Shown here one piece after another: positions 1,875-46,177 of a DNA stretch of 64,000 nucleotides. Positions within the stretch are counted from its first letter, which is position 1. The number at the start of each line of letters is the position of its first letter. The position numbers and the translations under genes are program-made. The notes under the pieces are model-generated. The model worked only from the letters and a program-made list of their open reading frames with translations. It searched no databases and had not been told where the DNA came from. Origin of the DNA: Marinilabiliales bacterium (GTDB lineage Bacteria; Bacteroidota; Bacteroidia; Bacteroidales; F082); the NCBI GenBank assembly GCA_002869365.1, contig PKTA01000178.1:1-64000 (forward strand). The letters run 5' to 3'.

Positions 1875-3230
1875 TTACTGCTTTCTATTAACTATTAATT
1901 GTCCTGTTTGGTATCCTACAACTTCAATTTCTGTTTCTTTATCTATGAAGCCTACAATAGCCGTGGCATCATACATATTATCATCAATAATTACTTTTCC
2001 TGAAGGTCGTAAACTGCTTTTTGATATGCCAGTTTTACCAATCATACTCTTATACACAGCATCAGAAGAAGTATAACCTTCAACAGGATTTAGTGTTTTT
2101 GCTAGTGATAAATTTCCAAAGGAGTTAGTGGCAAAGAGTTTCTTGCTCAACCAAATGGATAGTATCACAGAGGCAGTTAATGCTATAATAACTGTCATCA
2201 ATGCTTTAATAAGATTAGAAGGATCGTAATCGAATATGCCATCTCCCATATTTTCTACCATACTCAAACTCAAGCCGGTTACCATCAGTAAGGCACCTAA
2301 AGTTCCTGCCACACCAAAACCTGGTATGGCGAATATTTCCACCGCAAGCAGAGCCAATCCAAATACGAAAATTAATATTTCCCAGTGATTTGCCAGGCCT
2401 TCAAGGTAAAGTGGAGCGAAGTATAATAATGCTGCTATCGCCGATGCTGCAATAGGAAAACCAATGCCTGGTGTTTGAAGTTCGAAATATATTCCTCCAA
2501 TAATTATCATTATCAACACGCCACTGAACATTGGGTTAATTAGGAAGCCAATTATTTTGTCAGTTGCTGACAATTGATGTCTGTTAATTTTATAATTTTT
2601 AATGCCACTTTTTTCTAGTGCATCTTCAATACTTTTTGCTTCGTTCTCACAAAATTTATATTTAATGGCTTCTGATGTTGTAAATGTTAAAACCTGACCT
2701 GAATCGCTAATACCAGGCACATAAACCTTAGGATCAACCATGGCTTGGGCAATTTTTGGATCTCTGCCACTGGCTTCGGCAGTTGCCCTCATCATCGAGC
2801 GCATATACGATTGGTATTTATCGGGCATCTGCTCTCCCTGCTGATTTACAACAGTAGCAGCACCAATGCTGGCTCCTTCTGCCATATAAATTGAGTCGCA
2901 GGCCAGCGAAATTAATGCTCCGGCAGAAGCCGCATTTTTATCAATAAAAACATAAATCGGAATTTTCGAATTAAGTATTTTTGTGCGTATTGAATCGGCG
3001 GCATCCAACATCCCACCGTAGGTGTTCATATGAATAATTATTAAATCGTAACCATCTTTTTCAGCTGATTCAATGGCCTTTTTTGTTGTACGCCAAACAG
3101 GAGGCGCAATCATTTCCTTAATGTCAAAAGAGAAAACTTTTGTAACAGTACTGTCATTACTTGCACTTAAAGTGCTGGCAAGGATCATTATAACTGCTAT
3201 TAAACCTATTTTACTCAGGATTCTATTCAT
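1875..3230 (-). CDS. NfeD-family membrane-bound serine protease (ClpP class)
   Basis: Long-form NfeD (1b type), an inner-membrane protein with a periplasmic ClpP/SppA-like protease domain. The order is: signal peptide (residues 1-23), protease domain (about 30-220) with catalytic Ser102 in ASAGAL and HMNTYGG upstream, four or five membrane helices (about 225-365), then the soluble NfeD OB-fold domain (about 385-451). Family members cleave stomatin-like partners and affect membrane quality control; no stomatin gene is adjacent here. The start overlaps the upstream DUF2061 gene by 8 bp, so the two are probably co-translated. The 451-residue length is typical. Confidence 0.9.
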   Translation of the reverse strand: MNRILSKIGLIAVIMILASTLSASNDSTVTKVFSFDIKEMIAPPVWRTTKKAIESAEKDGYDLIIIHMNTYGGMLDAADSIRTKILNSKIPIYVFIDKNAASAGALISLACDSIYMAEGASIGAATVVNQQGEQMPDKYQSYMRSMMRATAEASGRDPKIAQAMVDPKVYVPGISDSGQVLTFTTSEAIKYKFCENEAKSIEDALEKSGIKNYKINRHQLSATDKIIGFLINPMFSGVLIMIIIGGIYFELQTPGIGFPIAASAIAALLYFAPLYLEGLANHWEILIFVFGLALLAVEIFAIPGFGVAGTLGALLMVTGLSLSMVENMGDGIFDYDPSNLIKALMTVIIALTASVILSIWLSKKLFATNSFGNLSLAKTLNPVEGYTSSDAVYKSMIGKTGISKSSLRPSGKVIIDDNMYDATAIVGFIDKETEIEVVGYQTGQLIVNRKQ

Positions 3231-3549
3231 TTTTCATCTTTTTAATTTTTTGAATATTACGATATCGTTTTCTTGCTGCCTGCCTTCGCCAATATTTACC
3301 CCAAACAATATTAGTCCATAATCTTTCATGCAAATAGTACAGAATGAGTTTGGCTATAATATCAACGCCTGTAATTAATGATACTGCCCCAACTATGTCT
3401 TTAAATGCTGTTTGTGTAGCCTGGGTGAAAATGGTAAAACTAATAATAAATGTTGCCCCCGAGGCTACAAGCCTCCAACTCAATGCTTTTAGGATGCTTC
3501 TTGTGGGGCTGTCTTTATCAATATGTTTGTAATTTTTCCTATCTGACAT
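3223..3549 (-). CDS. DUF2061 small membrane protein
   Basis: A 108-residue protein matching the DUF2061 pattern: SILKALSWRLVASGATF near the N-terminus, a first membrane helix, a DIIAKLILYYLHERLW motif, then a second helix and a basic tail. Its function is not known. In this phylum members are found alone or next to sulfate-activation genes; here it precedes nfeD, overlapping it by 8 bp. The C-terminal 30 residues are rich in Arg and Lys (KYWRRQAARKRYR) and probably face the cytoplasm. The family assignment is firm and the role is open. Confidence 0.85.
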   Translation of the reverse strand: MSDRKNYKHIDKDSPTRSILKALSWRLVASGATFIISFTIFTQATQTAFKDIVGAVSLITGVDIIAKLILYYLHERLWTNIVWGKYWRRQAARKRYRNIQKIKKMKNE

Positions 3550-3631
3550 TGCAATAAATTATATTTACAATATTAATAAAAATGCCTCTACTATTGGATT
3601 ATTTTATTAATAAAAATCTATAATTACTTTC

Positions 3632-4429
3632 CTATTTTTTATTGAAATAGAAGTTTAGTTTTTTGGCAAAATCATCATGAGTTAGTTTGTTCGAGGCTAT
3701 AATTTGCTTGCCGAAAAGGTAATTTTCTGTCAAGTTAAAATCGGTGACCATTCCTCCAGCTTGTTTAACAATAAATGCCCCTGCAGCAACATCCCATGGA
3801 TTTAATCCATATTCATAAAACACTTCAAATCTGCCTGCTGCCACATATGCAAGATCAAGTGCTGCCGAACCAAGTCTTCTAACACCACGACTGTTTTGCA
3901 TTAAATCCTTAAATAATTCCAAATATTGATCTAAAAGAGCATAATCGTAATAAGGAAAGCCTGTGGCTATAAGCGAGTTGTTTAAGTTTGATTGCTTAGT
4001 AACTTTAATTTCTCTTTTATTCAGAAAAGCTGCTGCTCCTTTCCATGAATAAAAACATTCACCGCTGCTAACCTCATAAACAATTCCAATAATTGTTTCA
4101 TTACCATCATTTAATGCAATTGAAATTGAATAGAATGGCACTGAATGTATGAAGTTTGTTGTACCGTCTAAAGGGTCTACTATCCAGTTAAACCTGTCTG
4201 CTTTTTTTAATGTTGGATCCTCTTCTGCGATAAATCCTGCTTCAGGTAGAATTTTTGATAATTCACTAACTATTATCTTTTCTGCCTGCTTATCAACATA
4301 TGTAACAAGATTATGTAAGCCCTTCTCTTCCACATCTTTATCTTCAAATTTTAATGATTCGCTCTTAATAAATTTACCAACTGCTTTTGTTAAGTTAATT
4401 ATTTGATTTGTAGTAGTTTGTAGTTTCAT
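3632..4429 (-). CDS. suhB: Inositol-1-monophosphatase family phosphatase
   Basis: Mg-dependent sugar or inositol phosphatase. All three metal-site motifs are visible: AEEDP (first acidic site, about residue 77), WIVDPLDGTTNFIH (about 90-103) and LNPWDVAAGAFIVKQAGG (about 210). The 265-residue length fits SuhB/IMPase. The gene overlaps upstream lgt by 4 bp (ATG inside the lgt end), so the two form a translationally coupled pair. The physiological substrate cannot be read from sequence; SuhB homologues may also serve in rRNA transcription complexes, but that is shown for Enterobacteria only. Confidence 0.88.
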   Translation of the reverse strand: MKLQTTTNQIINLTKAVGKFIKSESLKFEDKDVEEKGLHNLVTYVDKQAEKIIVSELSKILPEAGFIAEEDPTLKKADRFNWIVDPLDGTTNFIHSVPFYSISIALNDGNETIIGIVYEVSSGECFYSWKGAAAFLNKREIKVTKQSNLNNSLIATGFPYYDYALLDQYLELFKDLMQNSRGVRRLGSAALDLAYVAAGRFEVFYEYGLNPWDVAAGAFIVKQAGGMVTDFNLTENYLFGKQIIASNKLTHDDFAKKLNFYFNKK

Positions 4430-5583
4430 ACATTTGTTTTTTTGCGATTCATAAGGAGGAAGGTGAATAGCGAAAGTCCTGCAATGAATATCAATGTGGA
4501 AATTACTTCTGCTTGTGTTACCTTCATACCCAAAAAATTAAAAATATTATTAACTCTTATGTGCTCAATTAAAAATCTTTCAACTCCATTAAACATTAAA
4601 TAGATGGCAAAGAGCAAGCCCGGTATTTTAATTCTTTTTCTTATTGTCCACAGAATGATAAAAATAATAACTGCCATAAATGTTTCATAAATGGGAGTTG
4701 GAAATACTGGTTCAGCAAGTGCCATGCAATGAGGGCCAATACAACCGGGAATAGGAATGCCTTCATTAATTATATTATGAGGATAATTATAAGCCCATAG
4801 CCAATCGGGTAAAAAGTTTAGCCAATCGGGCTTTGATAAAGTGTTTACTATTCCCCAGTCACCATCACCTGCTGTATGGCAACCCAAACGACCTATACCA
4901 TAAGCAATTATTAAGGCAGGAGCGACAATGTCGGCCAGATGTTTCCAGTTAATACCTTTTTTTCCTGAATAAATAACTAATGCTACACCAGCAACTATTA
5001 ATCCTCCATAAAAAGTAAGCCCTGCAAACGACACTAAGGATTCCATTGGATCGGCCAAAAACTGATCCCAATTTTCAAACCAATGGAATATTTTAGCACC
5101 AATAATCCCAAATATCACAGCTACAAAAACTATTGGCCATGTATGGTCCTGGGCATGAATAATTACCTCAACCTTTTCAGGTTTTTCCTTGTTTTTATAG
5201 TTTTTTGTATAGAAAAGATAAGCAGCATAAATAATACCTAAACTTAATCCTCCCCATAAATTTCCCTTTAAGGAAATTAAAAATTCTTGTGGGTTGTTGG
5301 CAAAATACTGATAATCGGTGAAGGCATAAATTCCTTTAAAGCCAATTATAAAGGCGATAACAAAACTTATAATTAAATCAGTAATTGACAGGCGTTTAGA
5401 TTTCCAAATATTTTTTGTCTGGGCTTTTATTAAACCTTCTTCTTCCTTACGCTTAAGTTCATAAAAGAGAATAATTGCAGCGACTAAAAATGCCAATGCA
5501 AGAAAAAATCCGTATGATTGTATTGGCATATTAATGTTGGTGCCAAACAAATCATTAATAAGGTCGCTTAGTTTTGGATACAC
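4426..5583 (-). CDS. lgt: Prolipoprotein diacylglyceryl transferase
   Basis: Inner-membrane enzyme that attaches diacylglycerol to the lipobox cysteine of prolipoproteins, the first step for lipoproteins such as those in this window. The signature region GRLGCHTAGDGDWG replaces the enterobacterial NGCCYG form, as is usual for this phylum. At least seven hydrophobic segments are visible. The 385 residues make it longer than the E. coli enzyme (about 290), mainly through an N-terminal extension and a charged loop around residues 125-145 (KNYKNKEKPEKVEV). It is co-transcribed with suhB through a 4-bp overlap. Confidence 0.92.
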   Translation of the reverse strand: MYPKLSDLINDLFGTNINMPIQSYGFFLALAFLVAAIILFYELKRKEEEGLIKAQTKNIWKSKRLSITDLIISFVIAFIIGFKGIYAFTDYQYFANNPQEFLISLKGNLWGGLSLGIIYAAYLFYTKNYKNKEKPEKVEVIIHAQDHTWPIVFVAVIFGIIGAKIFHWFENWDQFLADPMESLVSFAGLTFYGGLIVAGVALVIYSGKKGINWKHLADIVAPALIIAYGIGRLGCHTAGDGDWGIVNTLSKPDWLNFLPDWLWAYNYPHNIINEGIPIPGCIGPHCMALAEPVFPTPIYETFMAVIIFIILWTIRKRIKIPGLLFAIYLMFNGVERFLIEHIRVNNIFNFLGMKVTQAEVISTLIFIAGLSLFTFLLMNRKKTNV

Positions 5584-28581: not shown

Positions 28582-30123
28582 ATGATTGTAATAAGCGACA
28601 AGGAATTAGATTTACAGGACTACTACCGCATACTTATAGAAGATGAAAATATTGATATTTCTGATGAAGTATTAAAAAAGGTCGATGATTGCTTCGATTT
28701 TCTTAGCGAATTTTCAAAAAACAAAGTTATTTACGGTGTTAATACAGGCTTAGGGCCTATGGCTCAATATCGTATAAATCAGGAAGATCAATTGAAGTTA
28801 CAATATAATTTGATCAGAAGTCATGCTGCAGGACAGGGTGAAGCTATTAAACCGATTTGTGTAAAAGCCGCCATGATATCCAGATTAAAAAGCCTTTCTT
28901 TGGGGTATTCGGGAGTTCATCGTGATGCCATAGTTTTGTTAAAAGAATTAATTAATAAAAATATTACCCCTTTTATCCCTGTTCATGGTGGAGTAGGAGC
29001 CAGTGGCGATTTGGTACAGTTATCACATCTCGCACTTGTGTTAATTGGAGAAGGAAAAGTTCTTTATAATGGAGAATGGAAGCCCACCGCTGAAGTATAT
29101 GAAAATGAGGACTTAAAGCCTCTTAAAGTTTATTTAAGAGAAGGTCTTGGTTTAATAAATGGCACTTCTGTAATGTCGGGTATAGGAATGGTAAATACTA
29201 TTTATGCAAATAAACTCCTTAATTGGTCGGTTGTTATTTCTGCCATGATAAATGAGATGGTAGAATCCTTTGATGATCATTTTTCTGATGAATTGAATTC
29301 AAAGAAAAAACATCAAGGGCAGCAGAAAGTTGCTATGGCTATGCGAAGTGCTATTACCGACTCAAAACTTATAAAAAAACGTGCCGATTCGCTTTTCAAT
29401 GGAAAGATAGAAGAGAAGATATTTAAACAAAAAATTCAGGAGTATTATTCGTTAAGATGTGTGCCTCAGATTCTTGGACCCATTAGTGATACCATTGATA
29501 ATGCTGAGAAAGTTCTGCAAAATGAAATTAACTCAGTAAACGATAATCCGGTAACCGATGTGGAAACAAAACATGTATATCATGGAGGTAATTTCCATGG
29601 CGATTATGTTTCCTTTGAAATGGATAAACTAAAGATAGCCATCACCAAACTATCTATGCTTGCAGAACGTCAACTTAACTTTCTCATGAATTCTAAATTG
29701 AATGAAATTCTGCCACCTTTTGTTAATTTAGGTACATTAGGATTAAATTTAGGTATGCAGGGAACGCAGTTTACAGCTACATCTACAACCGCTGAAAATC
29801 AAACCCTTTCAAATCCTGTTTATGTACATAGCATATCAAATAATAATGATAATCAGGATGTTGTGAGTATGGGGACCAACTCTGCCCTAATGGCGAAAAA
29901 AGTAATCGATAATACTTTTGAAGTTATGTCCATTGAATTCCTTACAGTTTTACAAGCAATCGACTATTTAAAAGTGCAGGATAAAATGGCCTCATTAACA
30001 AGCAATATTTATCAAAATTTGAGAGAAATTGTTCCGGTTTTTATTGAGGACAGTCCAAAATATGAGGAGATAGATGCAATTAAAAATTATCTCAGAAATA
30101 ATAACCCCAAAATTGTAAAGTAA
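28582..30123 (+). CDS. Tyrosine ammonia-lyase (flexirubin/aryl-polyene type)
   Basis: MIO-dependent aromatic amino acid lyase of 513 residues, expected to turn L-tyrosine into p-coumarate. The autocatalytic MIO triad Ala-Ser-Gly is at 140-142 (GGVGASGDLVQLSH) and the catalytic Tyr51 is in IYGVNTGLG. Its sequence is very close to the Flavobacterium johnsoniae enzyme as I remember it (the IRSH selectivity segment at 78-81, and HGGNFHGDYVSFEMDK). That enzyme is a selective TAL, so TAL is preferred over histidine ammonia-lyase, for which hutU/hutI partners are also lacking. p-Coumarate would prime an aryl polyene. It is followed after 1 bp by fabG, then a ketosynthase. Confidence 0.88.
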   Translation: MIVISDKELDLQDYYRILIEDENIDISDEVLKKVDDCFDFLSEFSKNKVIYGVNTGLGPMAQYRINQEDQLKLQYNLIRSHAAGQGEAIKPICVKAAMISRLKSLSLGYSGVHRDAIVLLKELINKNITPFIPVHGGVGASGDLVQLSHLALVLIGEGKVLYNGEWKPTAEVYENEDLKPLKVYLREGLGLINGTSVMSGIGMVNTIYANKLLNWSVVISAMINEMVESFDDHFSDELNSKKKHQGQQKVAMAMRSAITDSKLIKKRADSLFNGKIEEKIFKQKIQEYYSLRCVPQILGPISDTIDNAEKVLQNEINSVNDNPVTDVETKHVYHGGNFHGDYVSFEMDKLKIAITKLSMLAERQLNFLMNSKLNEILPPFVNLGTLGLNLGMQGTQFTATSTTAENQTLSNPVYVHSISNNNDNQDVVSMGTNSALMAKKVIDNTFEVMSIEFLTVLQAIDYLKVQDKMASLTSNIYQNLREIVPVFIEDSPKYEEIDAIKNYLRNNNPKIVK

Positions 30124-30124
30124 T

Positions 30125-30853
30125 ATGGACTATGCATTAGTAACAGGAGGCTCGGGTGCCATTGGTAGTGCAATATCTGCGGAATTGGCAAGCAAGAATA
30201 TAGCCGTATTGGTGCATTATAATTCCAATAAGGCAAAGGCAGACGATATTGTGAGTAAACTAACTGCAGAAGGCAATATTGCAGAGTCTATAGGGTTTGA
30301 CGTTGCAGATAACAAACAAGTTAAATCTGTTCTGGTTAAATGGAAAGAAAGTCATCCGGATGATAAAATCACAATTTTGGTAAATAATGCCGGAATTACT
30401 CAGGATAACCTGATGGTTTTTATGAATGAACCCGAATGGAAAAAGGTAATTGATACGAATTTAAATGGCTTTTATAATGTAACCTCCTCGCTTTTACAGG
30501 AAATGGTTTTAAATAAATGGGGCCGGATAGTAAATATAGTTTCGCTTTCGGGACAGAAGGGATTGCCGGGGCAAACTAATTATTCAGCCAGTAAAGCAGG
30601 AATAGTTGCTGCTACCAAATCCTTAGCTCAGGAATTGGGAAAAAAGCGAATAACTGTAAATGCAGTCTCTCCGGGATATATAGTTAGTGAAATGACTGAA
30701 GCTTTGGATGAGAGTGTTCTGAAAAAAATGATTCCCCTCAACCGTTTTGGAAAACCTGAAGAGGTTGCTTCTATAGTTGGCTTTTTAGTGTCCGATGGAG
30801 CCGCTTATATTACAGGAGAGTTGATAAGCGTAAATGGTGGGCTATATACTTAA
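30125..30853 (+). CDS. 3-oxoacyl-ACP reductase (FabG-like SDR) of the TAL operon
   Basis: A 242-residue short-chain dehydrogenase. NADP-binding Gly motif TGGSGAIGSA, NNAG motif VNNAGITQDN and active-site Ser/Tyr/Lys in VSLSGQ and TNYSASKAG are all present. The start is 1 bp after the TAL stop, so the genes are in one operon. In aryl-polyene and flexirubin clusters a FabG homologue reduces the 3-ketoacyl intermediate after each chain extension; that role fits this context better than primary fatty acid synthesis, because a second fabG is at the right end of the window. Confidence 0.88.
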   Translation: MDYALVTGGSGAIGSAISAELASKNIAVLVHYNSNKAKADDIVSKLTAEGNIAESIGFDVADNKQVKSVLVKWKESHPDDKITILVNNAGITQDNLMVFMNEPEWKKVIDTNLNGFYNVTSSLLQEMVLNKWGRIVNIVSLSGQKGLPGQTNYSASKAGIVAATKSLAQELGKKRITVNAVSPGYIVSEMTEALDESVLKKMIPLNRFGKPEEVASIVGFLVSDGAAYITGELISVNGGLYT

Positions 30854-30871
30854 TTTTATAATGTTTATTTT

Positions 30872-32086
30872 ATGAATAGGGTAGTAATTACAGGAATGGG
30901 AGTGTATTCCACTATAGGTGAGAATATTGAGGAAGTTAAAAATTCGCTTTATAAAGGAAAATCAGGAATTGTTTACGACTCAGAAAGGGAGAAATACGGC
31001 TTTCGTTCCAAACTAACCGGAGCATTAAACCGACCAGTTTTAAAAGGTATTTTATCAAGAAGAGAAAGAGTAGGCTTGCCGGAGCAGGGTGAGTATGCTT
31101 ATATGGCTACCATGGAAGCTCTTAACAATGCTAAAATGAGCCAGGATTATTTGAATGACCATATTGTAGGAATATTATATGGTAATGATAGTTCTTCAAC
31201 TGCTGTTATTGAGGCTGCTGAACTAATGAAAGAAAAGCGAAATACTATGCTACTGGGCTCGGGTTCAATTTTCCAATCGATGAACTCCACGGTTTCCATG
31301 AACCTTTCAGTAATTTTAAAACTCAGAGGAATAAACTTTACTTTAAGTGGCGCCTGCGCCAGTGGTTCTCATGCTATTGGAATGGGATATTTACTAATAA
31401 AACAAGGATTACAGGACGCCATAATATGTGGCGGAGCACAAGAAGTTAATGCACTATCTATGGGTAGTTTCGATGCTCTTAGTGCATTTTCAAACAGAAA
31501 TGAAAATCCTGACAAAGCTTCTCGCCCTTTCGACAGGGATAGAGACGGATTAATACCTTCAGGAGGAGGTGCCACTGTTATTTTGGAAAGTTATGAGAGT
31601 GCAAAAAAAAGAGGAGCGCCTATAATTGCAGAAGTACTTGGTTATGGCTTTTCATCTAATGGAGAGCATATCTCAGTTCCAAATGTTGAAGGGCCAGTAA
31701 GATCATTGGAAATGGCTTTGCAGCAGGCAGGGTTGAAAGCAAAGGATATAGACTATCTAAATGCTCATGCTACATCAACTCCCGTTGGAGATGCTAATGA
31801 AGCTAAAGCCATATATGAGGTGTTTGGGAATAAAGTACCGGTTAGTTCCACAAAATCGATGACCGGCCACGAAATGTGGATGGGTGGCGCCAGTGAAATA
31901 ATTTATTCATTAATAATGGCTCAAAATAGTTTTGCTGCTCCAAACATTAATTTTGAAAATCCTGATGAGTTTTCCGCCAAACTTAATATTGTAGCGGAAA
32001 CTAAGGAAATTAAGATAAATACTTTCTTGTCGAATTCCTTCGGGTTTGGAGGAACTAATTCGTCATTAATAGTGCATAAACTCTGA
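30872..32086 (+). CDS. Beta-ketoacyl-ACP synthase (aryl-polyene/flexirubin type)
   Basis: KAS-II-fold condensing enzyme of 404 residues with the full catalytic triad: Cys162 in SGACASGSHA, His299 in LNAHATSTPVGD and His333 in TKSMTGHEMW. The phrase MTGHEMWMGGASE instead of MTGHLLGAAGG is typical of ketosynthases in aryl-polyene/flexirubin clusters rather than of primary FabF. It follows FabG by 18 bp and ends the operon. It should extend an aryl primer such as p-coumaroyl-ACP with malonyl units. No acyl-carrier protein, dehydratase or ligase lies next to it, so partners must be elsewhere. Confidence 0.87.
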   Translation: MNRVVITGMGVYSTIGENIEEVKNSLYKGKSGIVYDSEREKYGFRSKLTGALNRPVLKGILSRRERVGLPEQGEYAYMATMEALNNAKMSQDYLNDHIVGILYGNDSSSTAVIEAAELMKEKRNTMLLGSGSIFQSMNSTVSMNLSVILKLRGINFTLSGACASGSHAIGMGYLLIKQGLQDAIICGGAQEVNALSMGSFDALSAFSNRNENPDKASRPFDRDRDGLIPSGGGATVILESYESAKKRGAPIIAEVLGYGFSSNGEHISVPNVEGPVRSLEMALQQAGLKAKDIDYLNAHATSTPVGDANEAKAIYEVFGNKVPVSSTKSMTGHEMWMGGASEIIYSLIMAQNSFAAPNINFENPDEFSAKLNIVAETKEIKINTFLSNSFGFGGTNSSLIVHKL

Positions 32087-32699: not shown

Positions 32700-34127
32700 A
32701 TGCTTCATTTAAAATACAATCATTCAGAATCAAAGAAAAATAGTAAACACTCTAAAATTCTTGTTAAAGAAGAAGGAAAAGAAATTCCTAAGTATAAAAT
32801 TCCAAAGGATTCAATGCCGGCAAGTTCAGCCTACCAAATTGTTCATGATGAATGTATGCTTGATGGTAATGCTCGCCTCAATCTTGCAACCTTTGTTACC
32901 ACTAGCATGGAACCAGAGGCCCAGAAACTTATGACTGAAACCATGGATAAAAACATGATCGATAAGTCGGAATACTCTCAGACTGCAGAGATCGAAAAAC
33001 GCTGTGTAAATATTATTGCCGACTTATGGAATTCGCATTCTGATCATGATTCTATTGGATGCTCTACAGTGGGCTCTTCTGAAGCATGTATGCTTGGCGG
33101 TATGGCATTAAAATGGAAGTGGAGAGAAAGGGAAAATCTGCCCACAAATACTGCTAGAATTCCAAATCTTGTTTTGAGTTCCGGTTTGCAGGTAGTTTGG
33201 GAGAAATTTTGTAAATATTGGGATGTGGAGATGAGAGAAGTTCCCATGGAAGAAGGAAATTACAAACTTGATGTTGATAAAGCCATAGAACTTTGTGACG
33301 AAAATACCATTGGTATAGTGCCTATTATGGGTATAACATATACCGGACAATATGACGATGTAAAATTACTGAACGATGAACTGGATAAGTTTAATAAAAA
33401 AACCGGATATAATATTCCCATACATGTTGATGCTGCCTCGGGAGGCTTTATTGCTCCTTTTGTACAGCCTGATTTGAAGTGGGATTTCCGCCTGAAATGG
33501 GTTCACTCCATAAGTGCATCAGGACATAAATACGGATTAGTATACCCGGGGGTAGGATGGGTAGTCTGGAAAAAAGAAGAATACCTTCCTGAAGACCTTG
33601 TTTTTTATGTTGACTATTTAGGTGGCAAAATGCCAACAATGGCCATTAATTTCTCTCGTCCCGGAAATCAGGTTTTGGCTCAATACTACCAATTCCTGCG
33701 ATTAGGATATGAAGGTTATGCCAGGGTACAAAAACATTCGCAAGATGTTGCTATGTATTTATCATCCAAAATATCCGAAATAGAAGAATTTAAATTGGTT
33801 ACCGACGGTAGTGATATACCGGTTTTTTGCTGGACTTTGAAAGAAAAGCAGGATAACTGGACATTATATGATCTTGGCGATCGTTTGTTAATGAATGGAT
33901 GGCAGGTACCTGCGTATGCCATGCCACAAAATGTTACAGATATGGTTGTACAGCGGATAGTTGTGAAAAGTGAAATGAGTTTTGATATGGCCGATATGCT
34001 TTTAAACAATATATTAGAACACCTCAATTATCTAAGGGCACTCACAGAACCAACTCCATCTACAATAGAAGCACAAAAACCAAAGGATGCAAATAACAAA
34101 ATACAAGAGGAGAGATTTCATCATTAG
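32700..34127 (+). CDS. gadB: Glutamate decarboxylase
   Basis: PLP-dependent decarboxylase of 475 residues turning glutamate into GABA and CO2 while consuming a proton, usually for acid resistance. The PLP lysine is Lys277 in SASGHKYGLVYPG, and IHVDAASGGF (242-251) holds the PLP-contacting Asp. The length and the C-terminal tail ending in His residues (EERFHH) fit the GadA/B group (E. coli GadB is about 466 residues with a C-terminal His). No glutamate/GABA antiporter follows, unlike in many Bacteroides, so the exchanger must be elsewhere. The next gene, 11 bp downstream, encodes a GIY-YIG-like protein. Confidence 0.93.
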   Translation: MLHLKYNHSESKKNSKHSKILVKEEGKEIPKYKIPKDSMPASSAYQIVHDECMLDGNARLNLATFVTTSMEPEAQKLMTETMDKNMIDKSEYSQTAEIEKRCVNIIADLWNSHSDHDSIGCSTVGSSEACMLGGMALKWKWRERENLPTNTARIPNLVLSSGLQVVWEKFCKYWDVEMREVPMEEGNYKLDVDKAIELCDENTIGIVPIMGITYTGQYDDVKLLNDELDKFNKKTGYNIPIHVDAASGGFIAPFVQPDLKWDFRLKWVHSISASGHKYGLVYPGVGWVVWKKEEYLPEDLVFYVDYLGGKMPTMAINFSRPGNQVLAQYYQFLRLGYEGYARVQKHSQDVAMYLSSKISEIEEFKLVTDGSDIPVFCWTLKEKQDNWTLYDLGDRLLMNGWQVPAYAMPQNVTDMVVQRIVVKSEMSFDMADMLLNNILEHLNYLRALTEPTPSTIEAQKPKDANNKIQEERFHH

Positions 34128-43851: not shown

Positions 43852-44946
43852 ATGAAGAAACCACAACTTGTTTGGGATATAAAGCCCGTAAGTTATATTT
43901 TAGGAAGAGATGCGCTAAGGTTATCTAGGAAGAGGTTAGAGGAATTTAATAAGCGCATAGTTCTGGTGGATGAAAATACTTTACAATTTTGTTTGCCGGT
44001 TTTTGAAGAACAAATGGAAAACCTTCGTATAGATGGAGTTATAAGTATTAATACAAATGTAAATAACAAAAGTATCGATCAAACAATTCATGTTTGGAAT
44101 GAGTTGGCAAAACTAGGTGCTGAACGCGATACATTATTGATAAATTTGGGAGGTGGTGTTGTTACCGACCTTGGCGGTTTCGCAGCAGCAACTTTTAAAC
44201 GTGGAATCAGTTTCGTTAATTTTCCTACATCATTGCTGGGCATGGTAGATGCAGCCATTGGTGGAAAAACAGGCCTCGATTTTGGTGGATTAAAAAACCA
44301 GATAGGATTATTTACAAACCCTATTTGTGTAGTTATCGATCCCATATTTTTGAAAACCCTCGATCAAAAGCAGTTGCTTTCTGGTTATGCCGAACTGCTT
44401 AAATGTGGATTGATAATGGATATTGATCTTTGGGATAGTCTTGAAAGTCAAAGATACGACAAAGTGGAAGAATGGGATAGCCTCATAGTTCAATCGGCGA
44501 GAAATAAAGTCGACATTGTAAGACATGATACTTTTGAAAAGGGACTTCGAAAAATTCTTAACTTTGGTCATACCGTTGGGCATGCAATTGAAAGTTATTT
44601 GTTAAATAAAGGTCTAGATATTACCCATGGAGAGGCTGTGGCTGCAGGCATGATTTGCGAAACCTATATCTCTTCGAAATTATATGAGTTTGAGTGTAAA
44701 AGAATAAAAGAAATTATCACAACCATCGACCATAATTTCCCAAGATTTAACCTGAAAAAAGATGACATTCCGGCATTGATGGAATTTTTAAAGCACGACA
44801 AAAAAAATAAGGGAGGTCAGTATCGTTTCAGCCTTTTAAGGCGACTTGGTAAAGCAGTTCATGATATTGAAGTTGAAGATGATTTGATACGCGAAAGCAT
44901 TGAATTTTACATCGACCATAAAGATTGTGAATGTGAAGAAGATTAG
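43852..44946 (+). CDS. aroB: 3-dehydroquinate synthase
   Basis: Second enzyme of the shikimate pathway, 364 residues, NAD- and zinc-dependent. NLGGGVVTDLGGFAAATF (about residues 98-115) is the NAD and phosphate site, FPTSLLGMVDAAIGGKTG follows, and the zinc ligands are the Glu in SGYAELLKCG (about 181), and the His residues of LNFGHTVGHAIE (about 240) and THGEAVAAG (about 262). The sequence is intact. Its 3' end overlaps the start of aroA by 14 nt, so the two are translationally coupled. Confidence 0.93.
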   Translation: MKKPQLVWDIKPVSYILGRDALRLSRKRLEEFNKRIVLVDENTLQFCLPVFEEQMENLRIDGVISINTNVNNKSIDQTIHVWNELAKLGAERDTLLINLGGGVVTDLGGFAAATFKRGISFVNFPTSLLGMVDAAIGGKTGLDFGGLKNQIGLFTNPICVVIDPIFLKTLDQKQLLSGYAELLKCGLIMDIDLWDSLESQRYDKVEEWDSLIVQSARNKVDIVRHDTFEKGLRKILNFGHTVGHAIESYLLNKGLDITHGEAVAAGMICETYISSKLYEFECKRIKEIITTIDHNFPRFNLKKDDIPALMEFLKHDKKNKGGQYRFSLLRRLGKAVHDIEVEDDLIRESIEFYIDHKDCECEED

Positions 44947-46177
44947 TCTTAAATCTGATCAAAAAAAAATTTCTGGTTCTGTAACACTTTCCGGATCTAA
45001 AAGTATCAGCAACAGGGTACTTATCATGACGGCATTTACTAGAAAAACACCACTAATATCAGGTTTGTCAAATTCTGATGATACTGTGCGTCTTCAAATG
45101 TATTTAAACAGAATAGAAACCTGTCGTAATTAAGGTATACCCCTGATTATTGATGCTAATAACGCCGGTACCGTTTTAAGATTTTTAACAGCATTTCTCG
45201 CTTTTGGTGATGGTAAATGGCTTTTAACAGGAAATGAACGCATGCAAAAAAGACCTGTTTCTGAACTTGTTACGGCGTTGCAGGATTTGGGAGCAAAAAT
45301 TTCCTATGCAAATAATGAGGGCTTTCCTCCTTTAAATATTACCTCTTCACGATTTAGTGGTGGTGAAGTATATATCGATGCTGCAAAGTCGAGCCAGTTT
45401 GTTAGCGCACTTATGATGATTGCTCCCGTATTAAAAAAAGGATTGATTATTAAACTTAATAAGAAAATTGTTTCGGAGCCGTATATTAAAATGACCGCCA
45501 GTTTGATGCGATTGTTTGGAATTGATGTGGACTTCTCAAATAATAAAATAATTATTCCACCTTCTGTTTATAATATTCCTGATTATACAGTTGAATCCGA
45601 CTGGAGTTCAGCGTCGTATTGGTATGAGGTAGTGGCTTTAAATGATGCATCCGAAATTAAAATATCGAATTTGTTTGAAAATTCAATCCAGGGAGATGCA
45701 AGTGTTTGTGAGGTATTTAAAAGTTTAGGTGTAACAACAACTTTTCTGCCCAAAGGCGAAATAGTCATTAAAAAAACCTCAACAACTGTTAAAGAATTAA
45801 ATTTCGATGCCACAGATTGTCCCGACTTGGTGCCATCTATAATGGCAAGTTGTTTTGGAAATGGTGTAAAATTGAATTTGACCGGATATTCACATTTAAA
45901 ATATAAGGAATCCGACAGGCTGAACTCAATGATTTCGGAATTATCAAAATTGGGTTGTAAACATTCATATAAGGGAAGAACATTAGTTCTTGAAGGTAAA
46001 ATTGTTGAGAAAAGAGCCGATTTTACAACCTATGGTGATCATCGTATTGCAATGAGTTTGGCACCTTTATGCTCGAAAACCGACAGTATTTCTATAGATG
46101 ATAAAGATGTGGTGCTTAAATCTTACCCTGATTTCTGGTCGGATATATTGAACCTTAATGTGTTAACAATTAGTTGA
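44933..46177 (+). pseudogene. aroA: EPSP synthase gene with one in-frame stop codon
   Basis: The ORF track splits this gene in two (44900-45133 and 45242-46177), but both lie in the same frame. Between them the frame reads RIETCRN, stop (TAA at 45131-45133), then GIPLIIDANNAGTVLRFL, which is the conserved DAGTAMRF block of AroA. So only one codon separates two otherwise good halves. The N-terminal half has KSISNRVLIM, and the C-terminal half keeps NERMQKRPV, TDCPDLVPSI, YKESDRLN and YGDHRIAMSL. The likely start is GTG at 44933. EPSP synthase would be truncated after about 66 residues. A true nonsense mutation, a recoded stop or a base-call error are all possible. Confidence 0.88.

Follow-up and report, generated by a model that had tools for sequence, protein, structure and literature searches.

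The aroA locus and its internal stop

The DNA that we analyzed (hereafter, the window) is bases 1-64000 of contig C34 from the draft genome G000, which comprises 3.6 Mb in 223 contigs and is 88.8% complete. From its size, contig count, and completeness, we infer that G000 is a metagenome assembly. A single frame on the forward strand of the window, at 44933-46177, encodes EPSP synthase (aroA), and its sole internal stop is a TAA at codon 67. The features of the locus are:

43852-44946, + strand: aroB (3-dehydroquinate synthase), intact; above the cut-off of TIGR01357; overlaps the start of aroA
44933-45130, + strand: 5' part of aroA, 66 codons from a GTG start at 44933, with KSISNR; from the translation and the profile match
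45131-45133, + strand: in-frame TAA; of 14 intact relatives, 12 have Ser at this site, 1 has Gln, and 1 has Glu
45134-46177, + strand: 3' part of aroA, from NAGT to the natural stop, in the same frame and with no further lesion; from the translation and the alignment
45242-46177, + strand: the only restart ORF after the stop, beginning with the first in-frame ATG, 311 amino acids, lacking KSISNR and NAGT

A sequence-only reading of the window had described aroA as one frame that is split by a single TAA and adjoins an intact aroB, and our translations and profile searches bear this out. If the stop is read through, the product scores 304.1 bits against the NCBIfam equivalog profile for aroA (TIGR01356, with a cut-off of 287.25 bits) and matches positions 1-412 of its 415. 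The conserved blocks that had been reported in the two halves (KSISNR, NERMQKRPV, TDCPDLVPSI, and DHRIAMS) are all present, and NAGT, KSSQF, and KYKESDR are kept as well. In an alignment to solved EPSP synthases and to relatives, the catalytic motifs KSxSNR, NAGT, KRP, SSQ, SxPY, the D of CPD, KESDR, DHR, and the K of KSYP are in place. We saw no frameshift or second stop within 44933-46177, so the TAA is all that keeps this stretch from being an uninterrupted frame for AroA. An EPSP synthase without KSISNR and NAGT could not be active, so the product of a restart at 45242 could not be the full enzyme.

The locus resembles the aroBA pairs of Bacteroidota (AroA being TIGR01356, PF00275) in its full-length profile match on readthrough, in its catalytic motifs, and in having aroB directly upstream; as assembled, it differs by the one TAA within aroA. 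The overlapping arrangement matches that of G003, which is from the same genus, and aroB is uninterrupted in G001, G002, G003, G005, and G020. Among the 41 genomes that we searched, no other AroA match has an internal stop. The alignment with the AroA proteins of relatives, which had been proposed as a check, gives a sense codon at this site in all 14 intact relatives. The codon is TCG (Ser) in G002 and G003 and TCA (Ser) in G020; a change from TCA to TAA is a single C-to-A step. We rejected the idea of a local pair of frameshifts that masks the correct frame: the alignment stays in register before and after the stop, with Ser at the site itself.

The AroA of G000 departs from the consensus at 4 of 114 conserved columns, the stop included, as compared to 3-18 for the intact relatives. 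It is 52% identical to the AroA of G001, and the intact proteins of G002 and G003 are likewise 50-52% identical to the G001 protein. Given so few departures from the conserved columns and such unaccelerated identities, we see no sign of decay in aroA, in agreement with the sequence-only reading. The lower identity to relatives of AroA (57%) than of AroB (73%) might suggest relaxed selection, but intact AroA pairs within the genus are equally diverged. Nor does aroA look like an old pseudogene, as it has neither extra lesions nor faster divergence than its intact orthologues.

The search for a second aroA in G000, another proposed check, came up empty: the sole other member of PF00275 is MurA. 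G000 contains aroC, which is cut by a contig end. G004, a draft from the same genus that is 87% complete, has aroC without aroA or aroB, and we suspect that the two missing genes probably fell into an assembly gap. The ammonia-lyase that had been noticed near aroA is, by its profile match, a flexirubin-type tyrosine ammonia-lyase (FlxA). Within 28582-32086, it precedes a FabG-like reductase and a ketoacyl synthase, and a glutamate decarboxylase comes after them (32700-34127).

Interrupted genes in G000 and its relatives

We scanned G000 for other interrupted genes by coding potential, over 402 kb and then over another 213 and 234 kb (about 850 kb), and checked the candidates against relatives and family profiles. 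The comparison with relatives was based on coding-scored genes, and the scan is incompletely sensitive, as it missed the aroC of G002. Several genes of G000 have a single in-frame stop. SecDF is interrupted by a TGA, where the frame is open in the seven relatives and codes for Gly or Ala; it also has a private change of Trp to Leu (TGG to TTG) in a column that does not otherwise vary. PorU and a secreted protein of 1226 amino acids are each interrupted by a TGA, where the nearest relative of PorU has Gly and three relatives of the secreted protein have Gly. An ABC-F ATPase, an Fe-dependent alcohol dehydrogenase, and a CotH/beta-helix protein contain one in-frame stop each, and a TonB receptor is probably interrupted as well, by two stops (TAA and TAG). 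A further raw candidate in G000 (L258) proved to be two adjacent genes.

Other drafts from the same genus have similar lesions. In G004, BamA (889 residues; L286:10954-13620, on G004:C10) is cut short by 85 residues through a single TAA at residue 804, a position that is Glu in relatives, and we did not find a second bamA in that genome. RelA/SpoT, YebC, a HAD hydrolase, and an ATP-grasp protein of G004 are likewise interrupted. In G002, aroC (L098, G002:C21:1089-2117) is interrupted once, by an in-frame TAA in place of a conserved Ser that is encoded by TCA in G003. G002 also contains apparent frameshifts, two of them in a RelA/SpoT gene (L164, about 2695-4846), and one other gene is affected too (L162, about 4001-5340). 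The same scan over 400 kb of G006, a relative that is assembled into a single contig, found no interrupted gene; its one raw candidate (L177) is a pair of different, unrelated genes that are adjacent.

Thus, scattered lesions in unrelated genes are found in the drafts but not in the single-contig genome, and one of them, in the sister draft G004, hits an essential gene. BamA is essential in Gram-negative bacteria. SecDF is nearly so, and real lesions should spare such genes. Because similar stops are scattered over the assembly, and because an essential gene is hit in a sister draft, we favor a sequence error as the explanation for the TAA in aroA.

Class of change and missing repair genes

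For seven of the stops, we could infer the one-step change, with the original residue taken from relatives (for PorU, from the nearest relative). All seven are changes from G:C to T:A: they affect Ser in aroA and in the aroC of G002, Gly in SecDF, PorU, the secreted protein, and RelA/SpoT, and Glu in BamA. If all one-base changes were equally likely, codon usage would lead us to expect 29% of this class, and seven of seven would arise by chance about 2 times in 10,000. Changes from G:C to T:A are the mark of oxidized guanine, whether it forms in a sequencing library or goes unrepaired in cells. Both sources have precedents. Ex vivo 8-oxoG damage leads to artefactual G>T changes (PMC12390751), and where mutY is broken in Elizabethkingia anophelis, changes from G/C to T/A made up 87% of the substitutions and accounted for 45 of the 49 nonsense mutations (PMC5458099).

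The repair genes themselves are missing. We found no mutY in any of the five genomes of the genus (G000-G004, which are 87-98% complete), while 41 of 60 genomes from the family have a match above the cut-off. A candidate in G000 turned out to be endonuclease III (Nth). Also, mutM is absent from all nine genomes that we tested for it, namely the five from the genus and four other relatives. Outside of the genus, mutY is also missing from five of five genomes of another genus (g7) and from some genomes of g14. Given these absences and the precedent from Elizabethkingia, real mutation is a serious rival to sequence error.

On the other hand, a lineage whose mutations are mostly from G:C to T:A should show it at neutral sites. 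At four-fold silent sites that differ between G002 and G003, the closest pair within the genus, 50% of the differences are transitions and just 27% are A/C or G/T, so the long-term mutation process of this genus does not yield a pure class of G:C-to-T:A changes, and the silent sites of this pair are not dominated by it.

Error, mutation, or readthrough

The sequence-only reading had left three options for the stop: a very recent event, a sequencing error, or readthrough. We believe that the TAA is probably a base error of the oxidative type that entered the consensus sequence of this draft metagenome assembly, which is to say that the interruption of aroA is most likely not biological. A guanine that was oxidized during library preparation would have caused a G-to-T or C-to-A error in a Ser codon of aroA, a gene that is otherwise intact, and in the living organism, the gene downstream of aroB most likely codes for a normal AroA. 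The known artefacts of library oxidation (PMC12390751) are similarly of a pure G:C-to-T:A class, scattered, and indifferent to the importance of the gene. They are known as low-frequency errors in reads, however, and here they would have entered the assembly consensus. Furthermore, if about 12% of such changes create a nonsense codon, then the implied density of errors is roughly one per several kb, a high figure for short reads of ordinary depth that assembled into contigs of 30-80 kb. It also counts against a base error that the absence of mutY and mutM independently predicts real mutations from G:C to T:A, and that the interrupted genes other than BamA, and perhaps SecDF, are not strictly essential. 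The argument from essentiality comes from the sister genome G004 and not from G000 itself.

A real and very recent nonsense mutation, fixed or frequent in the sampled population, is the main rival, and we consider it unlikely without dismissing it. Under this scenario, a genus without MutY and MutM would fail to repair oxidized guanine, and aroA and dozens of other genes would be newly inactivated. The lack of decay in aroA is consistent with so recent an event, the class of change is the expected one at all seven stops for which we could infer it, and in the MutY-deficient outbreak strain of E. anophelis, which also belongs to the Bacteroidota, the nonsense mutations are nearly all from G/C to T/A (PMC5458099). 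The genus-wide absence of mutY would explain why the pattern appears in three drafts and not in G006. But in Elizabethkingia the spectrum was shown by many isolates, whereas the silent sites of this genus lack the expected excess, AroA shows no relaxation, and living cells cannot carry the stop in BamA. Long-standing loss is much harder to credit, and we think it very unlikely that the organism is an auxotroph for aromatic amino acids with aroA as an established pseudogene. In principle, the loss of AroA would block the synthesis of chorismate, as the sequence-only reading had stated, and the lack of a second aroA, along with the absence of aroA and aroB from G004, might suggest that the pathway is being lost. 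Yet aroB is intact and aroC is present in G000, AroA has not evolved faster than its intact orthologues, and G004, which is incomplete, retains aroC.

It seems more improbable still that a genuine stop is translated through, by a suppressor tRNA or by leaky ribosomes, so that AroA is made. The conserved blocks and catalytic motifs in both halves of aroA would fit with this, and other interrupted genes, including the essential one in the sister genome, also look functional. However, the interrupting codons include TAA, TGA, and probably TAG, and they align with Ser, Gly, and Glu, which a single reassignment could not account for. All three codons also terminate long genes in the ordinary way; among the 31 tRNAs that we found in this 89%-complete genome, none has a TTA, CTA, or TCA anticodon; and in-frame stops just past the ends of genes are no more enriched, relative to the other frames, than they are in G006. 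TAA as a Ser codon, as suggested by the aroA of G000 and the aroC of G002, fails for similar reasons: elsewhere TGA aligns with Gly and TAA with Glu, and TAA is also the commonest terminator. In short, G000 does not pair one stop with one residue in many genes, nor with a matching tRNA. The combination of real mutation and readthrough, in which the genus bears a load of G:C-to-T:A nonsense mutations (in aroA, secDF, bamA, and aroC) and survives by broad readthrough, strikes us as scarcely credible.

If the aroA stop is a base error, as we believe, then single in-frame stops in the public drafts of this genus should not be taken as gene loss, auxotrophy, or recoding unless the reads have been checked. 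If the stops were real, this lineage of Bacteroidota without MutY or MutM would be a natural test of the nonsense load in a repair-poor genome. That the whole genus has lost mutY is a more lasting observation than the stop in aroA.
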